From an uncultured Fidelibacterota bacterium (lineage in GTDB: Bacteria > Fidelibacterota > Marinisomatia > Marinisomatales > TCS55), in assembly GCA_902615915.1 (NCBI GenBank), contig CACMQQ010000003.1:1-64000 (forward strand): a DNA stretch of 64,000 nt. Reading direction: 5' to 3'. Each line of letters begins with the position of its first letter. Positions within the stretch are counted from its first letter, which is position 1. The notes under the pieces are model-generated. The model was given only the letters and a program-made list of their open reading frames with translations, was not told the DNA's origin and did no database searches. The translations under genes and the position numbers were made by a program. Positions 2,911-20,122 of the stretch are shown piece after piece.

Positions 2911-2911
2911 T

Positions 2912-4405: not shown

Positions 4406-4413
4406 TTAATATC

Positions 4414-5512
4414 CTAATTTTTTAAGTTATTTATTAAAAATGAATTAATGAAATTATCTATTTCACCGTTCATAACTTTAGATATATTTGAAGTTTCTTC
4501 TTTTGTTCTGTGGTCCTTTACCATATTGTAAGGATGAAAAACATATGATCTTATTTGACTGCCCCAAGCAATATCTTTTTTTTCATCCTCTAAGTTTTTC
4601 ATTTGCTCTTTTTCCTTTTCAAGTTCAATTTGATATAGTTTTGCTTTTAAAACTTTCATGGCAGTTGCTTTATTTTTGTGTTGGCTTCTTTCATTTTGAC
4701 ATTGAACAACAACGTTTGAAGGTAAATGAGTAATTCTGATTGCTGAATCAGTTTTATTAACATGTTGACCTCCCGCTCCGCTTGCCCTGTAAGTATCTAT
4801 TCTTAAGTCATTTGGATCTATTTCAATTTCGATATCTTCATCTGAAGCAGGATAGACAAACACGGATGCAAAAGAAGTATGTCTTTTATTATTAGAATCA
4901 AATGGAGAAATTCTAACCAATCGATGAACGCCTGCTTCAGATTTTAAAAATCCGTATGCAAATTCCCCTTCTATTTCAATTGTAATGTCTTTTATGCCAG
5001 CTTCGTCACCAGGTTGGAAATCAAGAATTGATTTTTTAAAATTTTTTTTCTCAATCCATCTATCGTACATCCTAAACAGCATTTCAGCCCAATCTTGACT
5101 TTCTGTTCCTCCGGCTCCTGGATGAATAGTCATTATAGCGCTTTGCTTGTCATGATTATTACTTAATGTTAGCTTTACCTCAATTTCATTGATTTTATTA
5201 CGATATTTTAATAATTCGTTTTCAGCTTCACTCAATGAGACCTCTTGCGAGTCAGCAAATTCTAAAATAATCTTTGTGTCCTCTTTAATATTTTCTAAAT
5301 CTTCCCAAGATTTTATTTCTTTTTCAAGAGCAGAGTTTTCTCTTAGAAGTTTTGATGCTTTGTTATTATCAATCCAAAAGTCAGGCTCCAAAGATGTTTT
5401 TTGGAGCTTAGCTAGCTGTTGTTTTTTTGAATTAAGGTCAAAGATGCCCCCTAATCTTATTGTGTTTAGCGGACAAAATTTTAAATTCTTCTTTAAGCTG
5501 GTATATTTCCAT
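4414..5512 (-). CDS. prfB: Peptide chain release factor 2, expressed by programmed +1 frameshift
   Basis: RF2 recognises UGA and UAA stops and triggers peptide release. The gene is two overlapping frames. A 24-codon first part from ATG at 5512 ends at in-frame TGA (5440-5438). The second part, in the +1 frame, runs to 4414. Joined, they give 365 residues, the same length as E. coli RF2. The catalytic GGQ is at about 247-249 and the stop-recognition SPF at about 202-204. A gene call beginning at the internal TTG (5391) would be wrongly truncated. cdaA lies 11 nt upstream and lysS 8 nt downstream. Confidence 0.97.
5437..5452 (-). promoter_or_regulatory. prfB programmed +1 frameshift site
   Basis: On the minus strand the sequence reads AGG GGG CAT CTT TGA C. 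It contains an internal Shine-Dalgarno-like AGGGGG (5452-5447), a slippery CTT codon, and in-frame TGA followed by C. This is the classic RF2 autoregulatory recoding signal. When RF2 is scarce, ribosomes pause at TGA and slip to CTT-T-GAC; when RF2 is plentiful they terminate. Compared with the E. coli site only the codon before CTT differs (CAT instead of TAT). Confidence 0.97.
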
Positions 5513-5523
5513 AAAGTAACTTA

Positions 5524-6300
5524 CTAATCGCCTGATGAAATAAACATACTATCGTTAAGATATTTTCTTAAACTAATTTCATCTAACCCTACATGAACAA
5601 ACCTACCATTTTCAGCAACAGAAATTTGTGATTTTTCCTCTGAAATTAAAATAACTATTGCATCGGTCTCTTCAGTGATTCCTAAAGCAGCTCTATGCCT
5701 TGTTCCCATTTCAGGATCAATCATTTTACTTTCAGTTAAAGGTAAGATACAAGCTGCTGAATCTATTAAATCATTTTGTATTATTATTGCACCGTCATGT
5801 AGGGGGGAAGAGGGATTGAAAATTGAAATTATCAGAGGAGAAGTAACAAGAGCTTTCAGTTCTGTTCCTTGATCCTTGTAAGATCGTAAACCCGTCTCTC
5901 GCTGAATAACTATTAACCCACCCCATTTTTTTTTTGTTAAAAGTAGGCTTGATTCTACTATTGATAAAATTGTATTTGATGTTCCAACCTTAAAGATTTT
6001 ACTAAAAAAGCGGGTTTGACCTACATAAATCAACAATCTTCTCAATTCAGGTTGAAACAAAATAACAAAAGCTACAACCCATACAGTTTGAAATTGGTTA
6101 ATTAACCACGACGATGTACTAAGTCCAAAAGCATTAAACAAAAATGAACCAAACATTAAAAAGATCATTCCTGCTAACATTAGACCGGCATTTGTTCCTT
6201 TAAAATAAATATAAATCTTGAAAAAAAACCATGTAACAATAGCTATATCAATTAAATCAAAAAGTGTTATAGTCAAAAATCCAATTTGAAATAATACCAT
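5524..6300 (-). CDS. cdaA: Diadenylate cyclase, CdaA type (c-di-AMP synthesis)
   Basis: This 258-residue membrane enzyme makes cyclic di-AMP from two ATP. Three hydrophobic helices lie in the first ~80 residues, followed by a DisA_N cyclase domain. The catalytic DGA motif appears in SPLHDGAIII and the RHR motif in MGTRHRAALGI. This is the CdaA (YbbP) layout rather than the DNA-scanning DisA type. folP lies 4 nt upstream and prfB 11 nt downstream. The usual partner, the YbbR-domain regulator CdaR, is not adjacent; a YbbR-domain gene occurs at 61212-62186 in another operon. Confidence 0.94.
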   Translation of the reverse strand: MVLFQIGFLTITLFDLIDIAIVTWFFFKIYIYFKGTNAGLMLAGMIFLMFGSFLFNAFGLSTSSWLINQFQTVWVVAFVILFQPELRRLLIYVGQTRFFSKIFKVGTSNTILSIVESSLLLTKKKWGGLIVIQRETGLRSYKDQGTELKALVTSPLIISIFNPSSPLHDGAIIIQNDLIDSAACILPLTESKMIDPEMGTRHRAALGITEETDAIVILISEEKSQISVAENGRFVHVGLDEISLRKYLNDSMFISSGD

Positions 6301-6304
6301 AATC

Positions 6305-7141
6305 CTATGCCTTTAATATTTTTTCAAGAATAGTTAAGGCCTTTCTTACCTCTAATACATCATGAACTCTAATAATTTTTACACCTCGAATTATCGCATA
6401 AAGATTTGATGAAATTGTTCCCTCGAGTCTTTTTTCAGGAGGGCATTTTAATAAATCGCCTATAAAAGACTTTCTAGATGTACCAATCAAAGTATGACAA
6501 CCTAAATTACATATAATATCGATATTTTTTAATATTTTTAAATTATGCTGCAAGTTTTTACCAAAGCCAATACCAGGATCCAATATTATTTTACTGAGAG
6601 GAAAGTCTTTTTTATCAAGTTTTTTAACTTGTTGTTTAAAAAACATACTAATTTCATCAATTACATTGTGATAAAACGGGTTTTTCTGCATGGATTTTGG
6701 TGTTCCCTGCATGTGCATCAGAATTACAGGGATATTATTTTTTACTACAAGGTCGATCATATCAGGATCTTGAGATAAGCCTGTTATATCATTAACTATA
6801 TCTGCACCGTACTTAATTGCCTCAGATGCAACATCTGCTTTGTAAGTATCGATTGAAATTAAACACTCAACTTCATTTTTTATTTTTTCGAGTACTGGGA
6901 TAATTCTGTCCATCTCCTCTTGGGAGGAAATAGGGGTTGAGCCAGGCCTGCTAGATTCACCCCCGATGTCAATTATATCACATCCGTCTTCAAGCAATTT
7001 TAATGCTTTGTCAAATGCTTTTTTTGGATTTAAATAAAGACCGCCATCACTAAAGGAATCTGGAGTGATATTTAGTATACCTTGGATTAATACTCGATCC
7101 GGATTTATTAACCATTTCTCAAAATGATGATCTTGGAACAC
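6305..7141 (-). CDS. folP: Dihydropteroate synthase
   Basis: This enzyme condenses p-aminobenzoate with dihydropterin pyrophosphate in folate synthesis. At 278 residues it has normal length. Family signatures are ILNITPDSFSDGG near residue 22, DIGGESSRPGS near 60, and GTSRKSFIG near 220. The start codon is GTG at 7141, 14 nt after the ftsH stop; no upstream ATG is available in frame within that gap. The ftsH-folP-cdaA order is a recurrent arrangement in the FCB group. metF, another folate enzyme, is encoded about 4 kb upstream in the same run. Confidence 0.96.
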   Translation of the reverse strand: MFQDHHFEKWLINPDRVLIQGILNITPDSFSDGGLYLNPKKAFDKALKLLEDGCDIIDIGGESSRPGSTPISSQEEMDRIIPVLEKIKNEVECLISIDTYKADVASEAIKYGADIVNDITGLSQDPDMIDLVVKNNIPVILMHMQGTPKSMQKNPFYHNVIDEISMFFKQQVKKLDKKDFPLSKIILDPGIGFGKNLQHNLKILKNIDIICNLGCHTLIGTSRKSFIGDLLKCPPEKRLEGTISSNLYAIIRGVKIIRVHDVLEVRKALTILEKILKA

Positions 7142-7155
7142 AGAATGTAAGTATT

Positions 7156-9159
7156 TTATTTTTTCGAAGCAGACTTACCCGAGGTTCTTTTTTTCGTAAT
7201 AGTATTTTTTGAAGCATTGTTTAGAATACCATTGGAGGATCTGACAATTGCGTTGCCGTTCATGATGTTTAAGAGATCATCGCCATTAATTGTTTCATAT
7301 TTCAAAAGAGCTTCAGCAATTTGGTGTAAGTATTTGACTTTTGACTTTAGAATACTTTTTGCTTTTCTTTGAGCTTTTCTAACAATTTTGACAACTTCAT
7401 CATCTATTAATTTTGCCGTTTCTTCAGAATAGTCTTTTTGATTTTGAATCTCTCTACCAAGAAAAACTTCTTCATTTTTTTTACCAAAAGACATTGGTCC
7501 TAAAGTATCGCTCATACCCCATTCACAAACCATTTTTCTAGCTAATGATGTAGCTTGTTCAATGTCATTACCTGCGCCAGTAGTCATTTCTTTAAAAATT
7601 AATTCTTCAGCAGCTCTGCCTCCCATCAGTATTGCTAGTCTACCTTCAATATATTTCCTAGCATAGCCGTATTTTTCGTCAATTGGTAATTGCATGGTAA
7701 CACCTAAAGCTCTTCCTCTGGGAATTATCGTAACTTTATGAACTGGATCAGCACCTTTAGTTTCAACAGCAACTAAAGTATGACCAGCTTCATGATATGC
7801 AGTAGTTTTTTTATCTTCATCAGTCAAAACTGCACTTTTTCTTTGTACGCCCATCATAACTTTATCCTTTGCATCCTCAAAGTCCATCATGTCTACAGAT
7901 TTTTTATTTTTTCTTGCTGCTAATAGAGCTGCTTCATTTACTATATTTTCTAAATCTGCGCCTACCATGCCTGGGGTACCTTTAGCAATATCACTTAAAT
8001 TAATATTTTTTTTGTTAAGAACTATTTTTTTTGTGTGTACCTCTAAAATGCCTAACCTGCCCTTTAAATCAGGAACGTCAACTACAATTTGTCTATCAAA
8101 CCTTCCTGGTCTTAACAGTGCGGCATCTAAAACATCGGGGCGATTAGTTGCGGCCATAACAATAATATTTTCGTTTGCTTCAAAACCATCCATTTCGACT
8201 AGCAAAGCATTTAATGTTTGCTCTCTTTCATCGTGACCTCCTCCTAATCCGGCGCCTCTCTGTCTTCCAACAGCGTCTAATTCATCTATAAAAATTATAC
8301 AAGGTTGATTTTGCTTACCCTGTTCAAAAAGGTCTCTAACTCTTGAAGCTCCGACCCCAACGAACATTTCAACAAAATCGGCACCACTGAGATTAAAAAA
8401 AGGGACATTTGCTTCACCTGCTACAGCTCTTGCAAGCAAGGTTTTTCCTGTTCCAGGAGGGCCAACTAATAGAGCACCTCTAGGTATTTTTGCGCCTAGC
8501 TTTTGAAATCTTTTTGGTTTTTTAAGAAATTCAACAACTTCATTTAGCTCTTCTTTGGCTTCAACGCAACCGGCAACATCATCAAATGTAACTTTTGGCA
8601 TATCTGAAGTCCAGATTTTGGCCTTACTTTTACCAAAATTAAATATTGATTTCATGCCATTACCACCTTGCATTCTGCGCATGATAAATATCCAAAAGGC
8701 TAAAATTGCTATCCAGGGTACAAAATTCAAAAAATAACCTGTCCAATCAGGACTTTTCTGTTTGAAAGAGTACTCTAATCCATAGCTATCCCAACTACTC
8801 ATTACTTCTCGATCAATAAATGGGAGCTTCAATCTAAAATATTGAATTTCTTTGGATAATCCATTTGATAAAATTATTGATTGAGGAGTATTAAGTTCGC
8901 CATAAAATACTTCATCCACTATTTTAGCTTTAACAATACTTCTTGAAGAAAGAAAATTTTTGTAATCAGAGTATTCTATTTCTACCTCTCCGTTAGGCTG
9001 AGTAGAAAAGAACCTAGATAAGGAGATTGCAATAATTATTATAAGAATCCAAGCAAAACTAGTTTTTCCAGCTTTTTTCCATTGGAATTGAGGATTATCT
9101 TCGTTTTTATTATCACTTTTATTGTTAGGTTTATTATTATTTTGATTTTTGTTTGCCAT
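7156..9159 (-). CDS. ftsH: ATP-dependent zinc metalloprotease FtsH
   Basis: FtsH is the membrane-anchored AAA+ protease that degrades misfolded membrane proteins and selected regulators. The 667-residue protein has a Lys/Asn-rich cytoplasmic N-terminus. Transmembrane helices at about 34-51 and 143-160 flank a small periplasmic domain. Walker A GPPGTGKT is at 233-240, Walker [12 protein letters not shown] near 288-298, the second region of homology near 340-355, and the zinc-binding HEAGH at 456-460. All catalytic motifs are intact. It starts with ATG 1 nt after hpt and precedes folP. Confidence 0.98.
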
Positions 9160-9160
9160 A

Positions 9161-9691
9161 TTAAATTTCTATCCCCTGATAAATACCCTTCAAATTTCTA
9201 AATTTTTGATTATAATCAAGACCGTAACCTACTACAAATTCATCGGAAATTTCAAATCCTACCCAATCAATTTCAAAATTAAGTTTAGCTTTGTTTGGTT
9301 TTAACAATAAAGCTACTATGGCTACAGAATTGGCTTTATTAATCATTTTATTTCTAATCTTAGTAACTGTATCACCCGTATCAACAATATCTTCAATAAT
9401 TATAATATCTCTACCCTTTATATTATCAAAATCAAAGAAATCAAATTTTATGATGTCGGACTTTTGTTTACCATTGTAGCTACGTGCTTTAATAAAGCTT
9501 ATTTCTACATCAATATCTAAACATCTAACTAAATCAGCGAGAAAAATGAAGCTACCATTTAAGACACCAATACATAAAGGAGATTTTGAGAAATACCTGT
9601 TATTAATGTCATAGGCAATCTCGGCTAATCTCTTATTGATTGCGCCCAATGAAATAACTTTAGTTAAATTGTTCTTCAAAATTTGATTCAT
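9161..9691 (-). CDS. hpt: Hypoxanthine(-guanine) phosphoribosyltransferase
   Basis: This purine-salvage enzyme converts hypoxanthine or guanine plus PRPP to IMP or GMP. The PRPP-binding motif is IIIIEDIVDTGDT. I chose ATG at 9691 (176 residues), the usual family length, rather than TTG at 9709. The chosen start gives a 32-nt overlap with the 3' end of tilS. tilS-hpt-ftsH is a widespread bacterial gene order, which strengthens the call. No upstream spacer is present, so expression probably depends on the tilS transcript. Confidence 0.95.
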   Translation of the reverse strand: MNQILKNNLTKVISLGAINKRLAEIAYDINNRYFSKSPLCIGVLNGSFIFLADLVRCLDIDVEISFIKARSYNGKQKSDIIKFDFFDFDNIKGRDIIIIEDIVDTGDTVTKIRNKMINKANSVAIVALLLKPNKAKLNFEIDWVGFEISDEFVVGYGLDYNQKFRNLKGIYQGIEI

Positions 9692-11039
9692 TTTTAAATC
9701 TTGCAACAAGAGAAAGTTCCAAAAAACTTTCAGTTTTGTTTGTTATTTTTACATTATCACTTAATCTATGATTACATACCCATATAATTTCACCATTTGC
9801 CGTCAACACCAACTGTTTTTCTTTTTCAAAACAATTAATCTTTTGATCAATTAAAAAATCGCTTATTTTTTTTGAATTTTTCATCCCTAAAGGATGAAAA
9901 TAGTCTCCACTCTTCCATAATCTCAAATCTAATTTTTTATTATTGATGTATTTTGCATCAATGTATTCATGATATCCAGAATAATTAATTTGTTTTCTGC
10001 TAACTTTGTTTATTTTTACAAAAATATTCTTATTGAAGAATAATTTTCCTTTTTCATTTAACAATTCTTTTTTTAAGGGGATATTTTTTTTAATTAAAAT
10101 TTCATTTCTATTTTTTAATAAGGTATGATCATTAAGTAGTTTATATCTTGAGCCACTTTTGGATTTTATAATCCAAGCTTCCAAAGAATTAATAAAATTT
10201 CTCCTCCAAGGAGTATAAAAATCATTTACAAGATATTTTATGATAAGGATTTTTTGGCGCGCTGAATACTTGTTTAAAAAATTAGATTTTAATTTTAAAA
10301 TGCCATTTTCAAACTTCACATCATTACATATTAATAATAAGACTGACGATAATTTTTTTTCTATATTTGCTGCTTTTTTTGATATCGAAATAAAATTATC
10401 AATGAGTTTGGGAGCTTGATCTTCCCAAGGTGCTACCAGTTTATGCCTATATAAATTTCTTTTAATTGAAATATCTCTATTTGTTTTATCAAATAAAAAA
10501 TCAATATTCTCATTTTTTTGAAAATCTTCAATTATTTTTTTTTTAAAATATAAAAGAGGACGGTAATAATAGCCATTTCTCTTTGGTATACCTCTAATAC
10601 CAGCTAAACCTACTCCGTCATTTAGTCGCATTAAAATTGTTTCTAAATTGTCATTTGCATGATGAGCTGTCAAAAATACATCACAAGATAATTTTTTTAT
10701 ATATTTTTCAAACGCTAAGTATCTTATTTTTCTTGCATGCATTTCTATGCTTAGATTGCTTGGCTTGACAGCTTGCGATCTAAAGATATATATTGGAATA
10801 TCATAGTTTTTTGATTTATTTATTAAAAATTTTTCTTCTGCAATTGCGCTATTTCTTAAGTTGTGATTTACATATAAACCAAAAACATGAAATTTCTTTG
10901 GAAGCATAGAGCAAAGATGTAGTAAAACAGAAGAATCTTGTCCGCCCGATACGCCTACCAAGATCCTATGATTCTTTAATGAAAGCGATTTTATATCATA
11001 TAAAAAACTTTGAAAAATATCCTTTTTTTCATATATCAT
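9660..11039 (-). CDS. tilS: tRNA(Ile)-lysidine synthase
   Basis: TilS attaches lysine to C34 of the tRNA-Ile2 CAU anticodon, so that it reads AUA instead of AUG. The ATP-pyrophosphatase P-loop SGGQDSSVLLH lies near residue 30. The 459-residue length and the C-terminal region with KSGDYFHPLGMK match the long, E. coli-like form with the TilS C-terminal domain. AUA codons are plentiful in this AT-rich genome, so the function is important here. The start is ATG at 11039, directly after the metF stop. Confidence 0.94.
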   Translation of the reverse strand: MIYEKKDIFQSFLYDIKSLSLKNHRILVGVSGGQDSSVLLHLCSMLPKKFHVFGLYVNHNLRNSAIAEEKFLINKSKNYDIPIYIFRSQAVKPSNLSIEMHARKIRYLAFEKYIKKLSCDVFLTAHHANDNLETILMRLNDGVGLAGIRGIPKRNGYYYRPLLYFKKKIIEDFQKNENIDFLFDKTNRDISIKRNLYRHKLVAPWEDQAPKLIDNFISISKKAANIEKKLSSVLLLICNDVKFENGILKLKSNFLNKYSARQKILIIKYLVNDFYTPWRRNFINSLEAWIIKSKSGSRYKLLNDHTLLKNRNEILIKKNIPLKKELLNEKGKLFFNKNIFVKINKVSRKQINYSGYHEYIDAKYINNKKLDLRLWKSGDYFHPLGMKNSKKISDFLIDQKINCFEKEKQLVLTANGEIIWVCNHRLSDNVKITNKTESFLELSLVARFKNESNFEEQFN

Positions 11040-11984
11040 TCAGAACTCTGATAAAACTTCCACAACGCTTTTAGTAGATGACATGATGTAAAAATGAACA
11101 CAGGGAACACCGAATTCTAATAACTCATGGACCTGATTTTGCGCCCACTTAATTCCTACCTCTCTAATTTCATTTTTGTCTCTCCCTATTACTTGATTTG
11201 ATAGCTCGTTAGGTATATCCAAAAAGAAATATTTTGGCAAATTAGTTAAATGAGCTTCAGATGATAAAATTTTTATTCCAGGAATGATTGGAACTTTAAT
11301 ACCTGCTTGCTTACATTTTTCAACAAAATTAAAAAAGAGTTTATTATCAAAGAACATTTGTGTAACAATATAGTCTGCTCCTTGATCAACTTTCTTTTTT
11401 AAGTTAATTAAATCTCTATCTAAGCTTGAAGACTCAAAGTGTTTTTCAGGATATCCACCTACACCAATACAAAAATTTGACCTGCTGGAGTCTACTAAAC
11501 TTTCAAGATAAATTCCTTTATTCATCCTTGATATTTGAGCCACTAAATCAGATGCATATTGATTTACATTTGGATTATCCGATGCTCTTTTATCAATACG
11601 AAGTTCATCACCTCTCAATGCTAAAATATTGTCTATGCCAAGATAATTGAGCTCAATTAATGCGTCCTCGGTCTCTTCTTTAGTAAATCCATGGCATAAG
11701 ATATGAGGAACGGTCTCAATGTTGAATTTATTCTTGATAGCAGCGCTAATACCTATGGTGCCAGGTCTTTTTTTTCTAATATATTTTTTAAATCTATTGC
11801 CATTGCTCTCTTCAAAGTATACTTCTGCAGATCGACTGGTTAAATCGATAAACGGAGGATCAAAAGGCTTTAATTTTTCAACTAAATTAAAAATCTTTTC
11901 AATCGAACCTCCCCTAAGTGGTGGTATTATTTCATAGCTAAATAATGTTTTGTTTGCTTTTTCTAAGAATTCTATGACTTTCAT
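11040..11984 (-). CDS. metF: Methylenetetrahydrofolate reductase
   Basis: MetF is a flavoprotein reducing 5,10-methylene-THF to 5-methyl-THF for methionine synthesis. At 314 residues it has the typical bacterial length. Visible family features are FSYEIIPPLRGG at the N-terminus, LRGD near residue 120, IGVGGYPEKH near 173, and the substrate/FAD region GADYIVTQMFFDN near 200. The start is ATG at 11984, 10 nt after the metallo-beta-lactamase-fold gene. It abuts tilS without a gap, so they are probably co-transcribed. Confidence 0.96.
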   Translation of the reverse strand: MKVIEFLEKANKTLFSYEIIPPLRGGSIEKIFNLVEKLKPFDPPFIDLTSRSAEVYFEESNGNRFKKYIRKKRPGTIGISAAIKNKFNIETVPHILCHGFTKEETEDALIELNYLGIDNILALRGDELRIDKRASDNPNVNQYASDLVAQISRMNKGIYLESLVDSSRSNFCIGVGGYPEKHFESSSLDRDLINLKKKVDQGADYIVTQMFFDNKLFFNFVEKCKQAGIKVPIIPGIKILSSEAHLTNLPKYFFLDIPNELSNQVIGRDKNEIREVGIKWAQNQVHELLEFGVPCVHFYIMSSTKSVVEVLSEF

Positions 11985-11994
11985 TCTATAATTT

Positions 11995-12633
11995 CTAGTT
12001 TAAAAATTTTAAGTAGGGATTGTTGTGAAATTCTTCATTTAAAGTCGTATCTGGACCATGTCCAGAATGAACAATGGTTTCTTTTGGAAGTAAGGTAGTC
12101 AATCGACGTAGAGAATCTTGAAGAGTTCTATAGTCACCACCAGGCAAATCTGTCCTGCCAACGCTTCCTTGAAATAACGTATCACCAACGAACAAATGAT
12201 TTTTGAATAGAAATGAAACACCTCCAGGTGTGTGCCCTGGGGTGTTTATGGTTGTAAACTTCAAATCATTGAAACCTAGTGATAATTCACTGTCTAGCCA
12301 TTTTGTTACATTTGGCTTAGACTTAGGATTAATACCGAACAATTTGCATGATTCTTCATAATAATCAAGAATTCTTTTTTCATTTAGATGCAAATAGAAA
12401 TCAATGTTGTATTTATTCTGAAAAAAACTAACCGCTCCAATATGGTCCAAATGGGCATGAGTATTTATAACTGCTAATAGAGATAAATTATTATTAACGA
12501 TATAACTATCGATAAGCTCTTCGTTATCACCTGGGTCAATTAATACTGCGTCAAATTTTTCTTTATCGTATATCAGGTAACAATTCTCTTCAAAAGGCCC
12601 TGTAGTAATTTTTTTTATATTGCTATATTTCAT
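11995..12633 (-). CDS. Metallo-beta-lactamase-fold hydrolase, glyoxalase II/YcbL-like
   Basis: This is a small binuclear-zinc hydrolase of about 212 residues. The metal-binding motif THAHLDHIG is complete, and later ligands occur in NTPGHTPGG, FVGDTLF and VHSGHGPDT. The length and the lack of the long C-terminal glyoxalase II domain make it YcbL-like, so the substrate (a thioester such as S-lactoylglutathione or another) is uncertain. I chose ATG at 12633 over GTG at 12648; the 11-nt overlap with the upstream GAPDH-like gene suggests coupling. Any functional link to that neighbour is conjecture. Confidence 0.85.
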   Translation of the reverse strand: MKYSNIKKITTGPFEENCYLIYDKEKFDAVLIDPGDNEELIDSYIVNNNLSLLAVINTHAHLDHIGAVSFFQNKYNIDFYLHLNEKRILDYYEESCKLFGINPKSKPNVTKWLDSELSLGFNDLKFTTINTPGHTPGGVSFLFKNHLFVGDTLFQGSVGRTDLPGGDYRTLQDSLRRLTTLLPKETIVHSGHGPDTTLNEEFHNNPYLKFLN

Positions 12634-13699
12634 TAAAAAATAGTTCACTCAAACATTGAATCTTGTCCTCAAAAGAATGAGGGTATAGGAAATATTCTGC
12701 TGCGGTGATGCTACTTAAAATAGAATTTCCATCCTGTGGTGTAAAACAAAAGCCGTAAACTTCATGATTATTCTTTACATGTAAAGACTGCTCAACAACA
12801 ACTGTTTGATTTAATATTCTTCCAAAATGACCATGATCTCTTCCAAAAGAATAAACGGTGGATGTCATGTTTTTAGAAGTCATTGACACTAAATCATTAT
12901 TGAATAATTTTTCTTTTACATCATTTAAAGTGATTGGCTCACGTGTCTTGAGCGCAAACCAAAGGACATGCATATACTGACTATTTACTTTCATAGCTGA
13001 CGAGAATAAATTTAAATCATACCCTAAAGTTGCAAATAAACCTGATGCATCTTTAGCATGATGAGAGCCAAACATCTCATCTGTATGATTTGAGACAGCA
13101 GGGGATGCAATAAAGCTTCCAGCTTGACTAGTATCGTTAGCTCTTCTTACACAAACATACCTACCATCTATCAAGTTTTCAGGTCCAAAACCATCTATAG
13201 TTATTGTTTTGGTAATGCATGAAATATTATGAGTATTGCATGATACAATTTGAACAAATTGTTCATTCGATTTTTTCTTTAATATATTATCATTTATACC
13301 TCTGGCATACTTCATGCCAAAACCATCCTCACTTCCTTGAGCCATAAAACCATTTACGTCTTTAGAAAATTTTTTGTAATAATGCTCTTTATTCAAATGA
13401 CCAATTCCAGAGGGTGTGCAATCTATGACAACGCTTGACCTTGAAATTGCTTCTTCAGTTTCAAGCTCGGGATCCATTCCAAGTGACTTAAAATCGTCAA
13501 ACTTGTCTTCATTTACTGCTAGTCTTGCACCTCTTTTCAAAAGATTGATGACCTTGGATCTATCACTTTTTAATGCAGAATTTTTATTGAACGTAACTTG
13601 ATCTATTCCAAGCTGCTCAGAATAATCACAAAGCAATCCAATTAAAGGTTCGCCAATAGTTCCGGTTCCAACAACATGTACAATTTTTTTATTACTCAT
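12623..13699 (-). CDS. Divergent class II (archaeal-type) glyceraldehyde-3-phosphate dehydrogenase-like protein
   Basis: This 358-residue protein carries the landmark segments of archaeal-type GAPDH in the right order. There is a Rossmann start GTGTIGEP (11-18), DCTPSGIG (93-100), the catalytic-cysteine motif SCNT with Cys154, VRRAND (184-189) and SHHAKD (212-217). Several otherwise conserved segments differ: MAQGSEDG replaces the usual FQGGEKH, and MHVLWF stands where MHQHN is usual. The fold and an oxidoreductase role are well supported, but the substrate may not be glyceraldehyde-3-phosphate. The start ATG overlaps the ccmD stop, with AAGGAT upstream as a ribosome-binding site. It is not the bacterial GapA family. 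Confidence 0.75.
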   Translation of the reverse strand: MSNKKIVHVVGTGTIGEPLIGLLCDYSEQLGIDQVTFNKNSALKSDRSKVINLLKRGARLAVNEDKFDDFKSLGMDPELETEEAISRSSVVIDCTPSGIGHLNKEHYYKKFSKDVNGFMAQGSEDGFGMKYARGINDNILKKKSNEQFVQIVSCNTHNISCITKTITIDGFGPENLIDGRYVCVRRANDTSQAGSFIASPAVSNHTDEMFGSHHAKDASGLFATLGYDLNLFSSAMKVNSQYMHVLWFALKTREPITLNDVKEKLFNNDLVSMTSKNMTSTVYSFGRDHGHFGRILNQTVVVEQSLHVKNNHEVYGFCFTPQDGNSILSSITAAEYFLYPHSFEDKIQCLSELFFNEI

Positions 13700-13826
13700 C
13701 TATAAGATCCTTTACATTTTTCAATCTTATTTTTTTTTCTAATTTGAGATTATATGAAAACCATAAGATAATACTTAATAAAACAATTAAGTATGTGAAA
13801 AAAAAATAAGTAAAAAAATTATACAT
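13692..13826 (-). CDS. ccmD: CcmD-like small haem exporter subunit (44 residues)
   Basis: This short ATG frame encodes 44 residues with one hydrophobic helix (about residues 4-25, rich in F, L, I, Y) followed by a lysine-rich tail ending in acidic residues. That is the CcmD layout, and the gene sits directly after ccmC, where ccmD is normally found. CcmD helps release holo-CcmE from the CcmABC complex. The start overlaps the ccmC stop by 8 nt, and the stop TAA lies within the start region of the next gene. The call rests on position and topology, because CcmD sequences are poorly conserved. Confidence 0.78.
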   Translation of the reverse strand: MYNFFTYFFFTYLIVLLSIILWFSYNLKLEKKIRLKNVKDLIDE

Positions 13827-14484
13827 TATTTGTGAGATTTTTATTGATTGAGATCACGTATTTGCGATAACTCAGCATAACAAAAAAAATAAAAGAAAAA
13901 ACAAATAACGATATTAAAAAAGGAATGAGAATACCAGTAGGCTGTTGATTCATTTCCACTTGTGGATGAGATTGAAGTTCGGGTGACCAAAACTGAACCG
14001 AAAAAAAAATGATTGGAACATTCAAGAATGCAATAATTGCTATAACAGCAGAGGTTTTTTTAACTCTTTCGATATTACCACCAAAAGACCTCATCATAAA
14101 GTATCCAACATATGTCAAAAATAAAATTAAAGTTGTAGTTAATCTAGGCTCCCAAATCCATGGTTTCCCCCAAATTGGAGTTGCCCATATCGGGCCAGTT
14201 ATTAATACTAAAGACATAAAAAGTGTGCCTATTTCTGCGCACGCAGTGCCAGTGATATCCCATTTATCTTTTTTTGTAGACAAGAATAAAAAGCCTGAAA
14301 TCATAGCAATGAAGTAAGACAAGAATCCTACCCAAGCAGATGGAACATGTAGATAGAAAATTTTTTGAGCCCAATGTTGATCTGGCACCATTGGTGTACC
14401 ATAAAAGATATTCAACGAATTTAAGGCAAATAAAAAAATTGCTACAATCAACAAATATAGATTTTTTTTATTTTCATAGAACAT
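13819..14484 (-). CDS. ccmC: Haem exporter protein CcmC (haem handling for cytochrome c maturation)
   Basis: CcmC loads haem onto CcmE at the periplasmic face. The 221-residue protein has six hydrophobic helices. Its tryptophan-rich segment is WGKPWIWEPRLT (105-116), flanked by the expected haem-ligand histidines His46 (in YLHVPSAW) and His173 (in QSHPQVEM). The usual WWD aspartate is replaced here by glutamate (Glu112), a mild deviation. It lies 3 nt after ccmB and overlaps the small ccmD, all within the ccm run. Confidence 0.93.
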   Translation of the reverse strand: MFYENKKNLYLLIVAIFLFALNSLNIFYGTPMVPDQHWAQKIFYLHVPSAWVGFLSYFIAMISGFLFLSTKKDKWDITGTACAEIGTLFMSLVLITGPIWATPIWGKPWIWEPRLTTTLILFLTYVGYFMMRSFGGNIERVKKTSAVIAIIAFLNVPIIFFSVQFWSPELQSHPQVEMNQQPTGILIPFLISLFVFSFIFFVMLSYRKYVISINKNLTNNV

Positions 14485-14487
14485 CTG

Positions 14488-15153
14488 TTATTCCTCCAAA
14501 ATAAAGTCAAATAAAGCATAACCACTAAGGCCAAAAACAATTAAAATTGAAATTAACAAATAAATCCATACCTGCCATTCTATGTAAGGCACCTGGTTTA
14601 TGATAGAATTTGTAATGTTTGTCGCAGCAATGATCAATGGGCTGATCAATGGAAAAAGTAATACGGGGAATAATATTTCACTTATTCTTGCCCTCATTGA
14701 AATCCCTGAAATCAAATTCGATACAAACATTAGTGTCAAATTTATTAATAATGTTGATAATATCAGTAAAAAGAAATTTACATCAATATCAATAGACAAA
14801 AATGTAAAATAAGGAAATACGATCAGAGCTTGCATTAAGGTTATGAATATAAATCCACTTAATGCTTTAGCTATAAAAATTAAACCGCGATCGATAGGTG
14901 CAGATAAAATCAAATCTATAGCATTAAATTCTTTTTCATAAGCATAAGATCTGTGTACACCCAAAACTGTTACAAACAATATCATCAACCAAAAAAGGCC
15001 AGGAGCATAAGCCTCAATAATTTGCTTTGACAGATTAGAAGTAAACGAAATAATTACGATAATTGATAATCCAAAAGATAGCATTGTAATTATTATTTCT
15101 TTGTTTAAAATTTCAGCACGCAGCTCCTTATGAATTAATTTTAAAAGATCCAT
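14488..15153 (-). CDS. ccmB: Haem exporter membrane subunit CcmB
   Basis: CcmB is the permease partner of the CcmA ATPase in the CcmABCD complex. The 221-residue protein has about six transmembrane helices and the family N-terminus LIHKELRAEILNKEIIITML. I chose ATG at 15153 over the adjacent TTG. The ATG overlaps the ccmA stop by 1 nt (TGATG), a sign of translational coupling. ccmC follows after 3 nt. Confidence 0.92.
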   Translation of the reverse strand: MDLLKLIHKELRAEILNKEIIITMLSFGLSIIVIISFTSNLSKQIIEAYAPGLFWLMILFVTVLGVHRSYAYEKEFNAIDLILSAPIDRGLIFIAKALSGFIFITLMQALIVFPYFTFLSIDIDVNFFLLILSTLLINLTLMFVSNLISGISMRARISEILFPVLLFPLISPLIIAATNITNSIINQVPYIEWQVWIYLLISILIVFGLSGYALFDFILEE

Positions 15154-15782
15154 CAAGAAGATATCTTTTTATTCTTAAGATAGAGAGTATCATATTTACT
15201 ATTAGTAATGTAATCTGTATTGTGCGTAACTAAAAGAACTGATTGCTTGTTTTCTATCCAAAGTTCAATACATTGGTTGAATAATTCAACTCCCTCATCA
15301 TCAAGGCCATTTAAAGGTTCATCTAAAAGCCCTACCTTCCAGTCTAATAAAGAAGCATAAGCAAATTTTAATCTTTGAAGCATACCTTTTGAAAAAATTC
15401 CGACCGATTTGTTTATGTAATTACCTAAATCAAATTTATTCAACGTAAGAATAATTTTTTCTTTTGAAATGTCTGATTTTCTTAAAGAAAGACCTAATTC
15501 AATATTCTGTAAGGGGGATAAGAACTTGTAGAAACCAGGAGCGTCACCTAAATAAAAGATATTTTTTCGTAAAGTGGTTTTTTTACAATTTTCTATATCA
15601 TTGAAAAAAATTCTGCCGCTATTAAAAGACATAAGACTGGCTATAATTTTAAGAAAAGTAGTTTTACCAGAACCATTTTTTCCTCTTAGAATTTTTAATT
15701 CTGAATTTCCAATTTTTAAATTCACGTTATCTAATATGACTTTTCCATCAAAAGTCTTTGAGATTGAATCTATATGGAGCAT
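15153..15782 (-). CDS. ccmA: Cytochrome c maturation ABC ATPase CcmA
   Basis: CcmA hydrolyses ATP to release haem-loaded CcmE from CcmC and CcmD. The 209-residue protein shows Walker A LRGKNGSGKTT near residue 35, a degenerate signature region FSKGMLQRLKFA near 125, and Walker B VGLLDEPLNGLDDEG near 150. The length matches CcmA (about 200). Its ATG overlaps the stop of the preceding CcmI-like gene by 1 nt (TAATG), and ccmB follows with a 1-nt overlap. Confidence 0.93.
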   Translation of the reverse strand: MLHIDSISKTFDGKVILDNVNLKIGNSELKILRGKNGSGKTTFLKIIASLMSFNSGRIFFNDIENCKKTTLRKNIFYLGDAPGFYKFLSPLQNIELGLSLRKSDISKEKIILTLNKFDLGNYINKSVGIFSKGMLQRLKFAYASLLDWKVGLLDEPLNGLDDEGVELFNQCIELWIENKQSVLLVTHNTDYITNSKYDTLYLKNKKISS

Positions 15783-16054
15783 TATTTCTTTTTTAATTTT
15801 TTCAGAATTATTGATACTTCATTTTTAAGTAAATTTCTTCTTTTTTCAAATTCTACTTTGTCGATATTTCCAATATCAAATTCCATTTCAAGCTCTTTAA
15901 TGCTCCTGTACAATATTGTTTTCTCTCTTTTAAGAGATAAATTGGTTTCATCAACTGAATATTTGACTTTCTCTAAAAATAAAGGTTGTATAACATAAAA
16001 AACACTTATTATAGTAAAAAAAAATATAAAACTATAGCCTAAAATAGATGCCAT
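15782..16054 (-). CDS. Short CcmI-N-terminus-like membrane protein in the ccm cluster
   Basis: This 90-residue protein has one N-terminal helix (about 5-25) and a charged, helical, probably coiled-coil tail. The tail carries the pattern seen at the start of CcmI/CcmH-type proteins: about EKTILYRSIKELEMEFDIG followed by an FEKRR...LKNE segment. Full CcmI adds a long TPR region that binds apocytochrome; it is absent here. The gene sits between ccmF and ccmA, 3 nt after ccmF. I read it as a minimal CcmI-like assembly factor. No CcmH-type thioredoxin-fold gene is seen nearby. Confidence 0.65.
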   Translation of the reverse strand: MASILGYSFIFFFTIISVFYVIQPLFLEKVKYSVDETNLSLKREKTILYRSIKELEMEFDIGNIDKVEFEKRRNLLKNEVSIILKKLKKK

Positions 16055-16057
16055 AGA

Positions 16058-18019
16058 TTATAATTCTTTTCTTGGCCATAGTGCAATCATAGTCCCCAGG
16101 ACAAGAACATATCCACCGATCCACACCCATTTAACCAATGGATTAATCATAATTTTTAGAAAAGCAGTTCCATTAGCATCAATGGCTGAAAAAATTGAAT
16201 ATATATCAAGATTCATTGTTGAATGAATATCAATTTCACTATGAGGCTGTCTCTTATTAATATCAGGGTTCTCGTGAAAATACACTCTTTTTTCCGGATA
16301 TAAATCTTCGACAATGTTTCCCTGACTGTCTAACAGCCTTATATGTGATATCCAAGCATAATGATTGGGTCTTTCTTCTTCCGTAATATCAGTTAATAAA
16401 AATTCATAATCACCTACAAACTCGCTAGATCCTTTTTTTAATCCAAATTCTTTTTCTATGTCAAAAGCATTTCCAGTAAAACCAACAAACATTAATACGA
16501 TCCCAACATGAACTATATATCCACCATATCGAGAACGATTTTTTGAAATTATTTTATACAACGCGACAAAGAATGACTCGTTGAATCTGACAATTCTAGA
16601 TTTTGCACCCTTATAAAACTCCATATAAATCGCAATAATAACAAATAGACACAAAGAAAAGGAAATTACTACATATGCATCATAACCAAGGGCCATCAAA
16701 ATAAAAAATAAAATTCCACTAATCAGAGTAGGTAAAAAGAAATTATTCTTTATTTTTTCATTGGATGTTTTTCTCCATGCAAGCAATGGCCCAACGCCTG
16801 TCAAGCCTAATAAAATCAAACCAATAGGTGTATTTATTTGATTAAAAAAAGGAGCACCTACAGTTATTTTAGTTCCTCTTACAGCTTCAGATACTACCGG
16901 AAAGATAGTACCCCAAAAAACAGCGAAACAAAGCACAACAAAAATTACGTTGTTTAGAAGAAACCCTCCCTCCCTTGAAGCAAATGATTCAATTTTCTTA
17001 GCAGATTTCAAATGGTCTTTTCTGATATAAATCAAAGCAAAAGAAACAATTAGAAGAAAAAAGACAAAAGATAAGAAAACAGGCCCCAAAGAAGACTCTG
17101 TAAAGGAATGAACTGAGCTCATTACTCCAGACCTTGTAAGAAAAGTTCCAAATATTGTCAGAGTAAATGTTATGAATATTAAAATCATATTCCAAAAACG
17201 GAGCATGCCGCTTTTTTCTTGAATGATTATGGAATGTAAAAAAGCAGTTAAAGTTAACCAAGGCATAAAACTTGCATTCTCAACAGGGTCCCATGCCCAA
17301 TATCCACCCCATCCGAGCTCTTGATAAGCCCACCATCCGCCAAGTATTATACCAATGCTAAGAAATAGCCAAGAAATTAGAGTCCATCTTCTAATGCTTT
17401 TAATCCACAATGACCCGAGATCTTTATTTACCAAGGCTGAAAATGCAAAAGCAAATGGTACTGTTAGACCTACATATCCTAAATATAACGTTGGTGGATG
17501 GATGGCCATTGTTAAATTTTGCAGTAAAGGATTTAAACCATTACCATTTTGAATAACAAAATCAGTATCCGTAGGTTTAAAAGGATTAGTAATAAAATTG
17601 GTAAGCACTAAAAAGAATATTTGAACTACAGAAATAGATATTACTATCCAGGGCATCAACTTATGATGTTTGGTTTGATTTTGAAGAATAACAATCACAC
17701 TAAAGATAGATAAAATAAAGAGCCAAAATAAAAGAGATCCTGATTGACCAGCCCACAATGCTGAAATTTTATACATTGTTGGAGTTTCAAAACTCGTATA
17801 TCTCGCAACATAATCTATGTCGAAATTGCTTATCATTAGCTGATAAGAGAGAATAAATGTTGAAAGAAAAACTAAAAAAGAGGATGCTAAAGCCGATCTA
17901 TGGCCTAAAAGATTAATTCTTTCATCATTATTGGATGTATAAATAGACAAAGAAACAATGGATATGATACTAAAACCCAGCGCAAGATTTAACGCTACGC
18001 TACCTGCCAATGGTGTCAT
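16058..18019 (-). CDS. ccmF: Cytochrome c haem lyase CcmF
   Basis: CcmF transfers haem from CcmE to apocytochrome c. The 653-residue protein has about 14 or 15 transmembrane helices. The WWD haem-binding segment GGWWAYQELGWGGYWAWD lies at about 227-244. Candidate haem-ligand histidines occur in AIHPPTLYLGYVG (His174) and SSVHSFTESS (near 305). A periplasmic C-terminal region precedes the final helix. The start ATG overlaps the ccmE stop by 4 nt (ATGA). Length and motifs are those of the normal family. Confidence 0.95.
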   Translation of the reverse strand: MTPLAGSVALNLALGFSIISIVSLSIYTSNNDERINLLGHRSALASSFLVFLSTFILSYQLMISNFDIDYVARYTSFETPTMYKISALWAGQSGSLLFWLFILSIFSVIVILQNQTKHHKLMPWIVISISVVQIFFLVLTNFITNPFKPTDTDFVIQNGNGLNPLLQNLTMAIHPPTLYLGYVGLTVPFAFAFSALVNKDLGSLWIKSIRRWTLISWLFLSIGIILGGWWAYQELGWGGYWAWDPVENASFMPWLTLTAFLHSIIIQEKSGMLRFWNMILIFITFTLTIFGTFLTRSGVMSSVHSFTESSLGPVFLSFVFFLLIVSFALIYIRKDHLKSAKKIESFASREGGFLLNNVIFVVLCFAVFWGTIFPVVSEAVRGTKITVGAPFFNQINTPIGLILLGLTGVGPLLAWRKTSNEKIKNNFFLPTLISGILFFILMALGYDAYVVISFSLCLFVIIAIYMEFYKGAKSRIVRFNESFFVALYKIISKNRSRYGGYIVHVGIVLMFVGFTGNAFDIEKEFGLKKGSSEFVGDYEFLLTDITEEERPNHYAWISHIRLLDSQGNIVEDLYPEKRVYFHENPDINKRQPHSEIDIHSTMNLDIYSIFSAIDANGTAFLKIMINPLVKWVWIGGYVLVLGTMIALWPRKEL

Positions 18020-18450
18020 TGAACCAGTTCTGTTAACTTATAATTATTCTCATTTCTAAGGTCACCTTCATATCTGGATGCGCATTTTGTTTGTAGCTCA
18101 TCAGCATAAAAGGTTCCGTTCATTAGTTGGCCAGAAACTATGACTTCGGCTCCATCTTTGAATAGATCTGGACGAGTTTTTGTATATCGGACGGATAATT
18201 CACTTTCACCTTCTTTTAAGATAAAGTCACAATTAAGTTGATTGGATTCAGATATTTGTATAGATCCAGTTTTAACTAGGCCTCCTAGTTTTGTCCTTTT
18301 ACTTATTTGTTTATCAAGCAACTCTTCCACTGAAACAAACATAGACATAGCTGTTTTATCAGATGGAAAAATCGTTACCCAGCTTATCCAAAAAATTGTA
18401 ACACAAACAGCACCGGCAATCATAAGTTTTATTTTGTTTTCTGTATTCAA
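18016..18450 (-). CDS. ccmE: Haem chaperone CcmE, Cys-type (CxxxY)
   Basis: CcmE is a periplasmic, membrane-tethered OB-fold protein that carries haem covalently from CcmC to CcmF. The 144-residue protein has an N-terminal anchor (about 10-28) and the CcmE core. The haem-binding motif is CASRY (Cys123, Tyr127), not the usual HxxxY; the Cys codon is TGC at 18084-18082. Cys-type CcmE is known from archaea and Desulfovibrio in the System I* variant. The TTG start is supported by AGGGGA about 8 nt upstream. The next ATG, ten codons in, would remove the polar N-terminus ahead of the anchor. Confidence 0.92.
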   Translation of the reverse strand: MNTENKIKLMIAGAVCVTIFWISWVTIFPSDKTAMSMFVSVEELLDKQISKRTKLGGLVKTGSIQISESNQLNCDFILKEGESELSVRYTKTRPDLFKDGAEVIVSGQLMNGTFYADELQTKCASRYEGDLRNENNYKLTELVQ

Positions 18451-18463
18451 TTAATTATCCCCT

Positions 18464-20122
18464 TTAAAACGCTGAAGTTTCTTTCCACTCGCCAAACTCA
18501 GCTTTCATAACATCTATAATCTCACCGAGAGTTGCATCTTCCTTCGTAGCGTTGATAATTGATTCCATTATATTGTTATTATTTGCACATGCATTTCTAA
18601 TAGCATTTAGAGATTCCTTAACAAGATTGTTATCTCTTTTGTTCCGAATATTATCGATTCTTTCTTTTTGAATTTTTTCGGTTTCTTCCCCAATCTCAAG
18701 CGTAGGTATTTCTAATTCTTCATTATCTTTAATATATTTGTTAACACCAACATGAATCAAAGAGCCTTCGTCAATTTTCTTTTGGTATTCAGATGCAGAT
18801 TTAGCAATCTCTCTTTGAAAATATCCTTTTTCAATAGCCGGTATTACACCGCCAAGTTCATCTATTTCTTTAAAGTATTCCTCTACTTCCATTTCCATTT
18901 TATCAGTTAATGATTCTACATACCATGAACCTCCCAGAGGGTCGACAACATTAGTAACGCCTGTTTCATGAGCAATTAGCTGTTGGGTTCTTAAAGCAAT
19001 TTCAGCAGCTTTTTCAGTCGGAAGAGAAAGTGTTTCATCCATTGAGTTTGTATGTAATGATTGAGTTCCCCCCAAGACCGCAGACAAGGCTTGAAAACCA
19101 GTCCTAGCAATATTGTTTTCGGGTTGTTGGGCAGTTAAGGAACATCCAGCTGTTTGGGTATGAAATTTTAATTTTAAAGACCTTGGGTCTTTTGCTGAAT
19201 ATTTATACTTGAGTTTATTGGCCCATATTCTTCTAGAAGCTCTAAATTTTGCAATTTCTTCAAAAAAATCTAAATGGGAGTTAAAAAAGAATGAAAGCCT
19301 TGGAGCAAAACTATCAATGTCCAACCCTGCTTCTAAAGCATGTTCAATGTAGGCAAAACCATCAGCAAGTGTAAATGCAAGTTCTTGAGCCGCTGTAGAG
19401 CCAGCCTCTCTAATATGATAGCCTGAAATGGAAATTGTATTAAAATTAGGCATCTCTTTAGTGCAAAAAGAGATCATATCAGTAATTATTCTCATTGATG
19501 GCTTAGGAGGGAAAATCCATTCTTTTTGGGCTGTAAATTCTTTCAATATGTCATTTTGCAATGTTCCTCTTAATTTGCTAAGAGGTATATTTTGCTCCTG
19601 GGCTAAAGCAATGTAAAAAGCTAACAATATAACAGCTGGTCCATTTATGGTTTGAGACACTGAAATTTCAGAAAGGTTTATATTCTTAAACAATCTTCTC
19701 ATATCGTCTAATGAAGAAACTGAAACGCCGCATTTACCAACTTCTCCCAAGGACCAAGGATGATCGGGATCATATCCCATTAAAGTAGGCATGTCATAAG
19801 CAACTGATAATCCCGTTTGACCATTCTTCATCAACTGATGATATCTTTTATTGGTTTCCTCAGGTGTTCCAAAGCCAGAAAATTGTCTCATGGTCCATAG
19901 TCTGCCTCTATACATACTAGAGTGTATTCCTCTCGTGTAGGGAAATTGACCTGGAAATGATAGCTTATCCATAAAATCATTATCAGGTTCATATGGATAG
20001 TAAAGTGGTTCTTGTGACATCCCACTTAAAGTATCGAAACTTTTATCTCTAGATTTGCTCTTAGAGAATTCTTCATTCCAATCTTTTTTAGACTTTTCAA
20101 ATATATCTATTTGTTTTGACAT
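18464..20122 (-). CDS. Methylmalonyl-CoA mutase, catalytic (large) domain only
   Basis: This B12-dependent mutase family member interconverts methylmalonyl-CoA and succinyl-CoA. The 552-residue protein contains the TIM-barrel catalytic part, with [20 protein letters not shown] near residue 85, [14 protein letters not shown] near 114, and [14 protein letters not shown] near 230. It ends without the C-terminal cobalamin-binding domain (no DxHxxG segment), so it needs a separate B12-binding subunit that is not in this window. A cobalamin adenosyltransferase gene at 27197 could supply the cofactor. A related acyl-CoA mutase specificity cannot be excluded. It begins with ATG and precedes ccmE by 13 nt. 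Confidence 0.88.

Follow-up and report, generated by a model that had tools for sequence, protein, structure and literature searches.

What does a divergent archaeal-type glyceraldehyde-3-phosphate dehydrogenase (GAPDH) do in a bacterium, encoded as it is beside genes for cytochrome c maturation? The question is raised by a gene within the first 64,000 nucleotides of contig CACMQQ010000003.1 (assembly GCA_902615915.1), the stretch referred to here as the window. Its source is a 1.8 Mb metagenome-assembled genome (MAG) of Candidatus Neomarinimicrobiota, 87% complete. The protein, a divergent class II-type GAPDH, is termed Q, and the name is also used for members of its family. Q is the product of a real open reading frame (ORF) and is a distant relative of the class II (archaeal-type) GAPDHs. 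It is probably a phosphorylating GAPDH of a subfamily sister to class II, most likely operating in the reductive, sugar-building direction.

In profile searches Q matches the NCBIfam models for type II GAPDH (NF003251, E 3.3e-26) and archaeal GAPDH-II (TIGR01546, E 2.1e-19), with scores of 92.1 and 69.9 bits against curated cut-offs of 185 and 232.9. Two further family members reach 71 and 86 bits with the type II model. Given that Q scores below the curated cut-off, it is not filed as a canonical class II member. A Pfam scan of Q up to E 10 returned a single insignificant match (APAF-1-like, E 0.2), and neither the Pfam class I GAPDH models PF00044 and PF02800 nor TIGR01532 and TIGR01534 match the window protein; PF02800 matches weakly in six of seven family members examined. 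Good matches of Q among PDB sequences are limited to the four class II GAPDHs 1cf2, 1b7g, 2yyy and 2czc, found with the Q sequence at E 2.4e-12 to 8.3e-9 and with the family profile at E 5.9e-21 to 1.6e-15. The AlphaFold model of Q, made with 57 sequences (pLDDT 93.2, pTM 0.92), aligns with the same four entries over 323–328 residues with Z scores of 35.7–37.0, a root-mean-square deviation of 2.1–2.2 and 21–22% identity in the structural alignment. Class I GAPDHs follow as the next-best entries, with Z scores of 26.9 and lower. Profile, PDB sequence and predicted fold thus bear out the class II relationship put forward in an earlier note on this DNA, and the best reading places Q in a subfamily of its own, as a sister group to canonical class II GAPDH.

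All the class II landmarks listed in that note (DCTPxGIG, SCNT, VRRAxD and SHHxxD) are present in Q, as IDCTPSGIG (residues 92–100), VSCNT (152–156), VRRAND (184–189) and SHHAKD (212–217). In the alignment with 1cf2, Cys154 falls on Cys140, the catalytic nucleophile of that enzyme, and His244 on His219, its catalytic base; Arg185 and Arg186 probably contact phosphate. Together with Asn155, Gln121 and Asp217, these four residues are invariant in all 106 cellular and all 55 viral distinct proteins of the family, a count of 161 from which proteins shorter than 331 residues and identical copies were excluded. The matches do not lead to an unrelated dehydrogenase devoid of a Cys/His pair, the outcome by which the earlier note would have been refuted; the putative catalytic pair is aligned with that of 1cf2 and invariant. 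Asp189, which follows the arginine pair, is kept in the 62 cellular and 68 viral rows compared. The canonical comparison set comprises seven class II sequences, namely three archaeal stretches and four bacterial plasmid proteins; the first arginine of the pair is found in seven of the seven and the second in six. The Q family retains QGxE, SCNT, the arginine pair, the aspartate and the histidine at the catalytic position of canonical class II, and adds motifs of its own, including GEPLIGLL, THN, SFGRDxG and FTPQDGNS. The interval between Asp189 and Pro200 spans 11–12 residues in the Q family versus 18 in three canonical bacterial proteins. In one clade, f29 (loci L138–L141), the Q copies are 42–48% identical and show SHH to TYQ, SCNT to SCNA and Lys39 to Pro replacements.

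The strongest evidence for GAPDH identity and for the reductive direction is provided by Calvin-cycle operons. One genome (G022) of the Marinimicrobia, a bacterial phylum found chiefly in the sea, has a second Q, 51% identical, on a 5.8-kb contig (L178), in the company of genes for the large subunit of form II RuBisCO (match to 6ius at E 4e-256), PRK (E 4e-98) and ferredoxin-NADP reductase (FNR, E 7e-73); the sigma54-activator-like and CBS ORFs of this contig were assigned by inspection. The operon recurs in a MAG of a different family of the same taxonomic order (G134), with identities of 72% for the activator, 86% for RuBisCO, 77% for PRK, 87% for the CBS ORF, 79% for Q and 73% for FNR. There it continues with ribulose-phosphate 3-epimerase (E 1.5e-62), transketolase (E 8e-169) and, by inspection, an RpiB-like ORF. 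The Q paralogue fills the GAPDH position of the Calvin operon, beside a possible NADPH source in FNR. The window protein, the two operon paralogues and one phage copy agree at all 22 residues that were checked. A viral origin of the 5.8-kb contig is unlikely, as only its Q paralogue matched the phage ORFs compared and the operon recurs in the second genome.

A census of the phylum bears on whether Q is the GAPDH of these bacteria. The type II GAPDH model matches 206 of 245 phylum genomes, some of these matches being class I GAPDHs. With the Q family profile, matches are obtained in 185 of 244 genomes of the phylum and in 76 of the 94 near-complete ones; exclusion of one weak match (G200, E 4.8e-7) leaves 75, and the Q of G037 is partial (E 4e-46). 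The class I model PF02800 matches 204 of the 244 genomes, and class I GAPDH was counted only at E<1e-20 because the Q family itself matches this model weakly. On this count 62 near-complete genomes carry both Q and class I GAPDH, 13 carry Q only, 18 class I only and one (G214) neither. PGK is present in all 94; class I GAPDH is absent in 14, of which 13 have Q. TIM was found in all of a set of 14 consisting of the 13 Q-only genomes and G163, which with 6% contamination falls outside the near-complete genomes, and no member of the aldehyde:ferredoxin oxidoreductase family was found in any of these 14. In f15, a small-genome family, Q is the only GAPDH found: eight near-complete f15 genomes possess PGK and TIM, and class I GAPDH only as weak matches. 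PFK, found in 188 genomes, is found in no f15 genome, which fits gluconeogenesis only. Among near-complete genomes (84 with PFK, G107 being counted as PFK-less) the absence of PFK and the loss of class I GAPDH are associated (p 1e-6). An f15 genome (G060) encodes two aldehyde dehydrogenases, a P5C dehydrogenase scoring over its cut-off and an MdlD-like enzyme below; the latter was rejected as a GAPN, with 144 bits versus 780 for archaeal GAPN.

The second GAPDH that the earlier note suggested looking for does exist in the source genome, as a divergent class I GAPDH-like protein (253 bits versus a cut-off of 367). Its gene neighbours a HAD-like ORF and ORFs that on inspection resemble surface-polysaccharide genes. 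Neither a normal class I GAPDH nor PFK turned up in this genome, which is 87% complete; the sister genome G001 has both.

From these observations we infer a phosphorylating mechanism that would run as follows. PGK would supply 1,3-bisphosphoglycerate as the substrate of Q. This would acylate Cys154 with departure of phosphate, and the resulting thioester would be reduced by NAD(P)H, probably NADPH, with His244 serving as acid/base. The glyceraldehyde 3-phosphate set free would then pass to TIM and aldolase. In most Marinimicrobia, Q would take the gluconeogenic part beside a class I GAPDH that serves glycolysis, by analogy with GapII and GapI of Haloferax. In the f15 small genomes it would act as the only GAPDH found, and in two genomes its paralogue would serve the Calvin-cycle operon. 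In phages, relatives of Q would probably channel carbon of the host towards hexose and pentose phosphates.

The best reading of its distribution is that Q is old in Marinimicrobia. A recurring gene order, methylmalonyl-CoA mutase, (ccm), Q, (metallo-beta-lactamase fold), (MTHFR), TilS, Hpt, FtsH, FolP and CdaA, extends across families and classes; contig ends cut some loci, and the genes in brackets are missing in some. Clade f29 keeps the downstream half. Over 20 distant loci the median identity of Q to the window protein is 60%, a conservation similar to that of FtsH and RF2 and well above that of CcmA, CcmB and TilS. The Q tree largely tracks the taxonomy family codes, with 18 of 46 inner branches weak and with the f1 and f19 rows each not forming one clade. 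Class II proteins stand apart from Q on a saturated branch (5 + 5 changes per column). Occurrence in most of the phylum, the conserved gene order and a tree that mostly follows taxonomy argue against a recent transfer from archaea, and the notion of a transferred gene finds no support in this form. A peptide scan of genome contigs with the window protein returned Neomarinimicrobiota/Marinimicrobia records, a few FCB records and one labelled Thaumarchaeota (L021), which has the same gene order as the Marinimicrobia loci and is probably a mislabelled bin. A plasmid collection yielded eight weak matches to Q at 22–28% identity, seven annotated as type II GAPDH and one unannotated.

Several points weigh against a GAPDH function for Q. 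With the type II model none of the 245 phylum genomes passes the curated cut-off, whereas four bacterial type II GAPDHs score 311–454 bits. The sequence changes suspected in the earlier note are real: QGGE has become QGSE throughout the family except in clade f29, which differs again, and every one of the 62 cellular and 68 viral rows has Gln instead of Thr at the third position ahead of the catalytic His. Both SHH histidines are gone from f29, where on sequence grounds the function of Q may have drifted or altered. The operon paralogues are only 49–51% identical to the window protein, so that their function would be carried to it by homology only. Both operon contigs belong to uncultured MAGs and are taken as binned; mis-binning is less likely given that two MAGs share the same operon. 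Over the 94 genomes, Q and class I GAPDH show no significant complementarity (Fisher p 0.29), and the link with PFK is weakened as eight of the ten PFK-less near-complete genomes belong to one family, approximately one event. Five of the 13 Q-only genomes (G012, G032, G158, G166 and G173) do have PFK, and each has three to eight aldehyde dehydrogenases, counted as family matches only. Genome incompleteness may explain some of the absences. A third real change affects the stretch that holds GPIN or GIMN in most class II proteins, which is shortened by some six residues in each of the 62 cellular and 68 viral Q rows. It was dropped as the mark of a new family: the accepted type II protein of Bradyrhizobium, which scores above the cut-off, has 12 residues there and is as short as Q.

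Other functions are conceivable. Q might keep the GAPDH mechanism and oxidise or reduce another phosphorylated or activated aldehyde, such as erythrose 4-phosphate for pyridoxal phosphate (PLP) synthesis, or an acyl-CoA or semialdehyde linked to methylmalonyl-CoA mutase. The long saturated branch to canonical class II, the invariant motifs peculiar to the family, its strong internal conservation and the frequent proximity of the mutase gene would all suit such an enzyme. However, the NCBIfam E4P dehydrogenase models (E4PD) gave no match to Q up to E 10, and the TilS–Hpt–FtsH side of the locus is conserved at least as well as the mutase side, making neighbour order weak evidence. Two Calvin-cycle operons in which a paralogue identical at the checked residues takes the place of GAPDH, and several genomes with PGK and TIM in which no other GAPDH was found, disfavour the new substrate that had been envisaged for this gene, and we consider an enzyme for another aldehyde unlikely. 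It is more improbable still that the operon and phage copies are GAPDHs while the widespread window-type copy has moved to a regulatory or other non-GAPDH function. The co-occurrence of Q and class I GAPDH in 62 near-complete genomes would permit this, as would the divergence between the window protein and the operon paralogues, but the 22 residues shared between them and the eight f15 genomes with only weak class I matches speak for a retained activity.

Least credible of all is that Q belongs functionally to a cytochrome c maturation operon. The earlier note had described Q as coupled to a hydrolase gene and to ccmD, and this holds for the overlaps: in the window the metallo-beta-lactamase-fold gene and the 3' end of Q have 26 bases in common, and the ORF in the ccmD position shares eight bases with the start of Q. 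The association with ccm is incidental. In 12 of 51 loci no ccm match lies between the mutase gene and Q, which there sits between the mutase gene and TilS, and ccm is also missing beside Q in loci L122–L126. A reductive GAPDH remains by some distance our favoured interpretation.

The same family is carried by phages. A scan of IMG/VR with the Q family profile identified 76 contigs encoding relatives, 41–56% identical where long. In a scan with the viral profile, 82 stretches were confirmed and 80 kept, giving 78 loci, which are the same 76 contigs plus two more. These contigs are up to 284 kb, and some are near-duplicates of one another. A scan of 82 of 92 cluster representatives of the ORFs near Q, with families pooled over contigs, identified PhoH, DNA polymerases, UvsX, DnaB helicase, topoisomerase II, ribonucleotide reductase and GroEL, as well as a PurZ-like adenylosuccinate synthetase and a weak match to PhuZ tubulin; an ORF resembling a tail sheath was recognised by inspection. 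The commonest neighbour clusters are a protease-like ORF (51 of 78 loci) and PhoH (48 of 78). Q resides on phage replicons beside phage genes with its active-site residues intact: all 68 long viral copies keep Cys154, His244, both arginines and both SHH histidines. The AlphaFold model of one viral copy (pLDDT 91.9) matches class II GAPDH entries with Z scores of 34.4–35.7. Of the 35 viral rows in the tree, 34 cluster together with the Calvin paralogue of G022 (support 88, not starred), and one (L181) lies among cellular copies. No match to Q was found at E 1e-3 in 50,697 GenBank phage records, with either the viral or the window protein as query, PHROG has no match to the family, and a BFVD fold search with phage Q gave no full-length GAPDH-like match (best TMq 0.41).

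On three of the contigs, representing two distinct phages, adjacent genes for malate synthase and isocitrate lyase lie in the vicinity of Q. L306 and L307 differ by one base in 21,065 and are one phage, with PDB matches of E 8.5e-153 and 1.1e-177 for the two enzymes of L307; those of L311 are 58% and 82% identical to them. Judged from gene content, the combination of these enzymes with Q would fit a gluconeogenic programme. L306 and L307 also carry an IMPDH-like ORF and, by inspection, a deformylase-like ORF. Upstream of phage Q, tmRNA predictions with ANDN... tags occur on three contigs (L257, L261 and L265), and these tags may hint at the host. A further locus, L313, part of a 177-kb contig, has, within the 21 kb surrounding phage Q, a single tmRNA prediction and 29 tRNA predictions, of which one lacks a clear anticodon.

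Q differs from previously described GAPDHs in several respects. With class II enzymes (1cf2, 1b7g, 2czc, 2yyy and haloarchaeal GapII) it shares the fold over nearly the whole chain, the Cys, the His, the arginine pair, QGxE and SHHxxD, but it scores at about half the curated cut-off or less, has QGSE, has QYMH in place of TxxH, and carries its own motifs. In Haloferax volcanii, GapII is reported to serve gluconeogenesis and GapI glycolysis (PMC10817205, citing Tastensen and Schonheit 2018), and it is by analogy with haloarchaeal GapII that gluconeogenic use is proposed for Q. Bacterial type II GAPDHs are borne on plasmids of Meiothermus (beside pfkA), Croceicoccus (beside a CBS-domain gene, the neighbour also seen in the Calvin operons), Methylocystis and Bradyrhizobium; unlike Q they exceed the type II cut-off. 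Class I GAPDHs (GapA, GapB, Gap2 and E4PDH) share reaction chemistry and overall fold with Q, but their Pfam models do not match the window protein.

Virus-borne genes of central carbon metabolism are known, among them cyanophage talC, zwf, gnd and cp12. GAPDH has been reported from giant-virus MAGs (PMC9270025) and, in a 2025 soil-virus study, as new among viral auxiliary metabolic genes (AMGs; PMC12615777), and a cyanophage review describes no Calvin-cycle proteins as detected, only the inhibitor CP12 (PMC5083919). Unlike Q, none of these is named as a class II-type protein in the parts of the three papers covered here. The main texts of two Marinimicrobia papers (PMC6143742 and PMC11652737) do not mention glyceraldehyde or GAPDH in a term search, and searches of open-access literature, preprints excluded, on type II GAPDH and class II GAPDH in bacteria, Marinimicrobia/SAR406, viral AMGs or RuBisCO/PRK turned up no account of the Q family.

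Q fills a GAPDH gap in small-genome Marinimicrobia and draws attention to a Calvin-cycle operon carried by two MAGs of the phylum. It has no name in the libraries used, with no Pfam match over cut-off, scores below the NCBIfam cut-offs and no PHROG. Its phage form is a central-carbon gene that annotation by known families would overlook. If the proposed activity holds, phages beyond cyanophages may steer host carbon, and upward through gluconeogenesis, with two of these phages adding genes of the glyoxylate shunt. A wider proposal, which we hold tentatively and as slightly less probable than its opposite, is that phosphorylating GAPDHs include a third lineage, represented by Q, which is sister to class II and adapted to the reductive direction. 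It would serve gluconeogenesis in Marinimicrobia, on its own in the small-genome lineages, and as a paralogue a Calvin operon with form II RuBisCO. Many so far undescribed, uncultured phages would have captured it, some together with the glyoxylate shunt, turning acetyl-CoA and 3-phosphoglycerate of the host into hexose and pentose phosphates for phage nucleotides.

The features discussed are listed in Table 1. Within the window neighbourhood, the short ORF in the ccmD position has no Pfam match supporting that identity, and the metallo-beta-lactamase-fold gene adjoins Q often, not always, among relatives; the ccm block is missing beside Q in part of them.

Table 1. Positions of Q, its neighbours and related features in the window and in other contigs
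Feature	Sequence	Position	Strand	Remarks
Q, divergent class II-type GAPDH	window	12623..13699	minus	open ORF, ATG start, 358 aa
Metallo-beta-lactamase-fold hydrolase gene	window	11995..12648	minus	glyoxalase II-like, below that model's cut-off
44-aa ORF, ccmD position	window	13692..13826	minus	overlaps Q start
ccm block	window	13819..18450	minus	CcmC-like (PF01578), CcmF-like (TIGR00353, below its cut-off)
CcmB, CcmA, CcmE	window	within 13819..18450	minus	named from position and inspection only
Methylmalonyl-CoA mutase large-subunit domain	window	18464..20122	minus	upstream neighbour of Q even without ccm
TilS	window	9660..11039	minus	conserved downstream neighbour of Q
Cys154 codon (VSCNT)	window	13238..13240	minus	aligned with 1cf2 Cys140
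His244 codon (QYMH)	window	12968..12970	minus	aligned with 1cf2 His219
Arg185-Arg186 codons (VRRAND)	window	13142..13147	minus	arginine pair of most class II GAPDHs
Calvin-cycle operon	L178 (G022:C34)			sigma54-activator-like ORF, form II RuBisCO, PRK, CBS ORF, Q paralogue, FNR
Calvin-cycle operon	L335 (G134:C28), 61-kb contig	1991-11327		same six genes as L178
Malate synthase and isocitrate lyase	L306/L307	14412-17236		phage contigs
Malate synthase and isocitrate lyase	L311	12306-15114		phage contig
tmRNA prediction	L257	9195-9503		upstream of phage Q
tmRNA prediction	L261	8241-8623		upstream of phage Q
tmRNA prediction	L265	8839-9249		upstream of phage Q
Divergent class I GAPDH-like protein	L053 (source genome, C2)	1432-2472		
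YbdK-family carboxylate-amine ligase gene	L122	10251-11378		between mutase and Q
Q copy with in-frame TGA	G043:C14	143960-145018		

Two observations concern individual loci. A gene for a YbdK-family carboxylate-amine ligase, identified with NCBIfam, lies between the mutase gene and Q in L122, and YbdK-like ORFs recognised by inspection occupy the same place in L127, L130 and L336, an arrangement spread over several families. The Q copy of G043 contains three in-frame TGA codons; recoding of TGA as Trp is disfavoured, and the codons are most likely local frame errors of the assembly.

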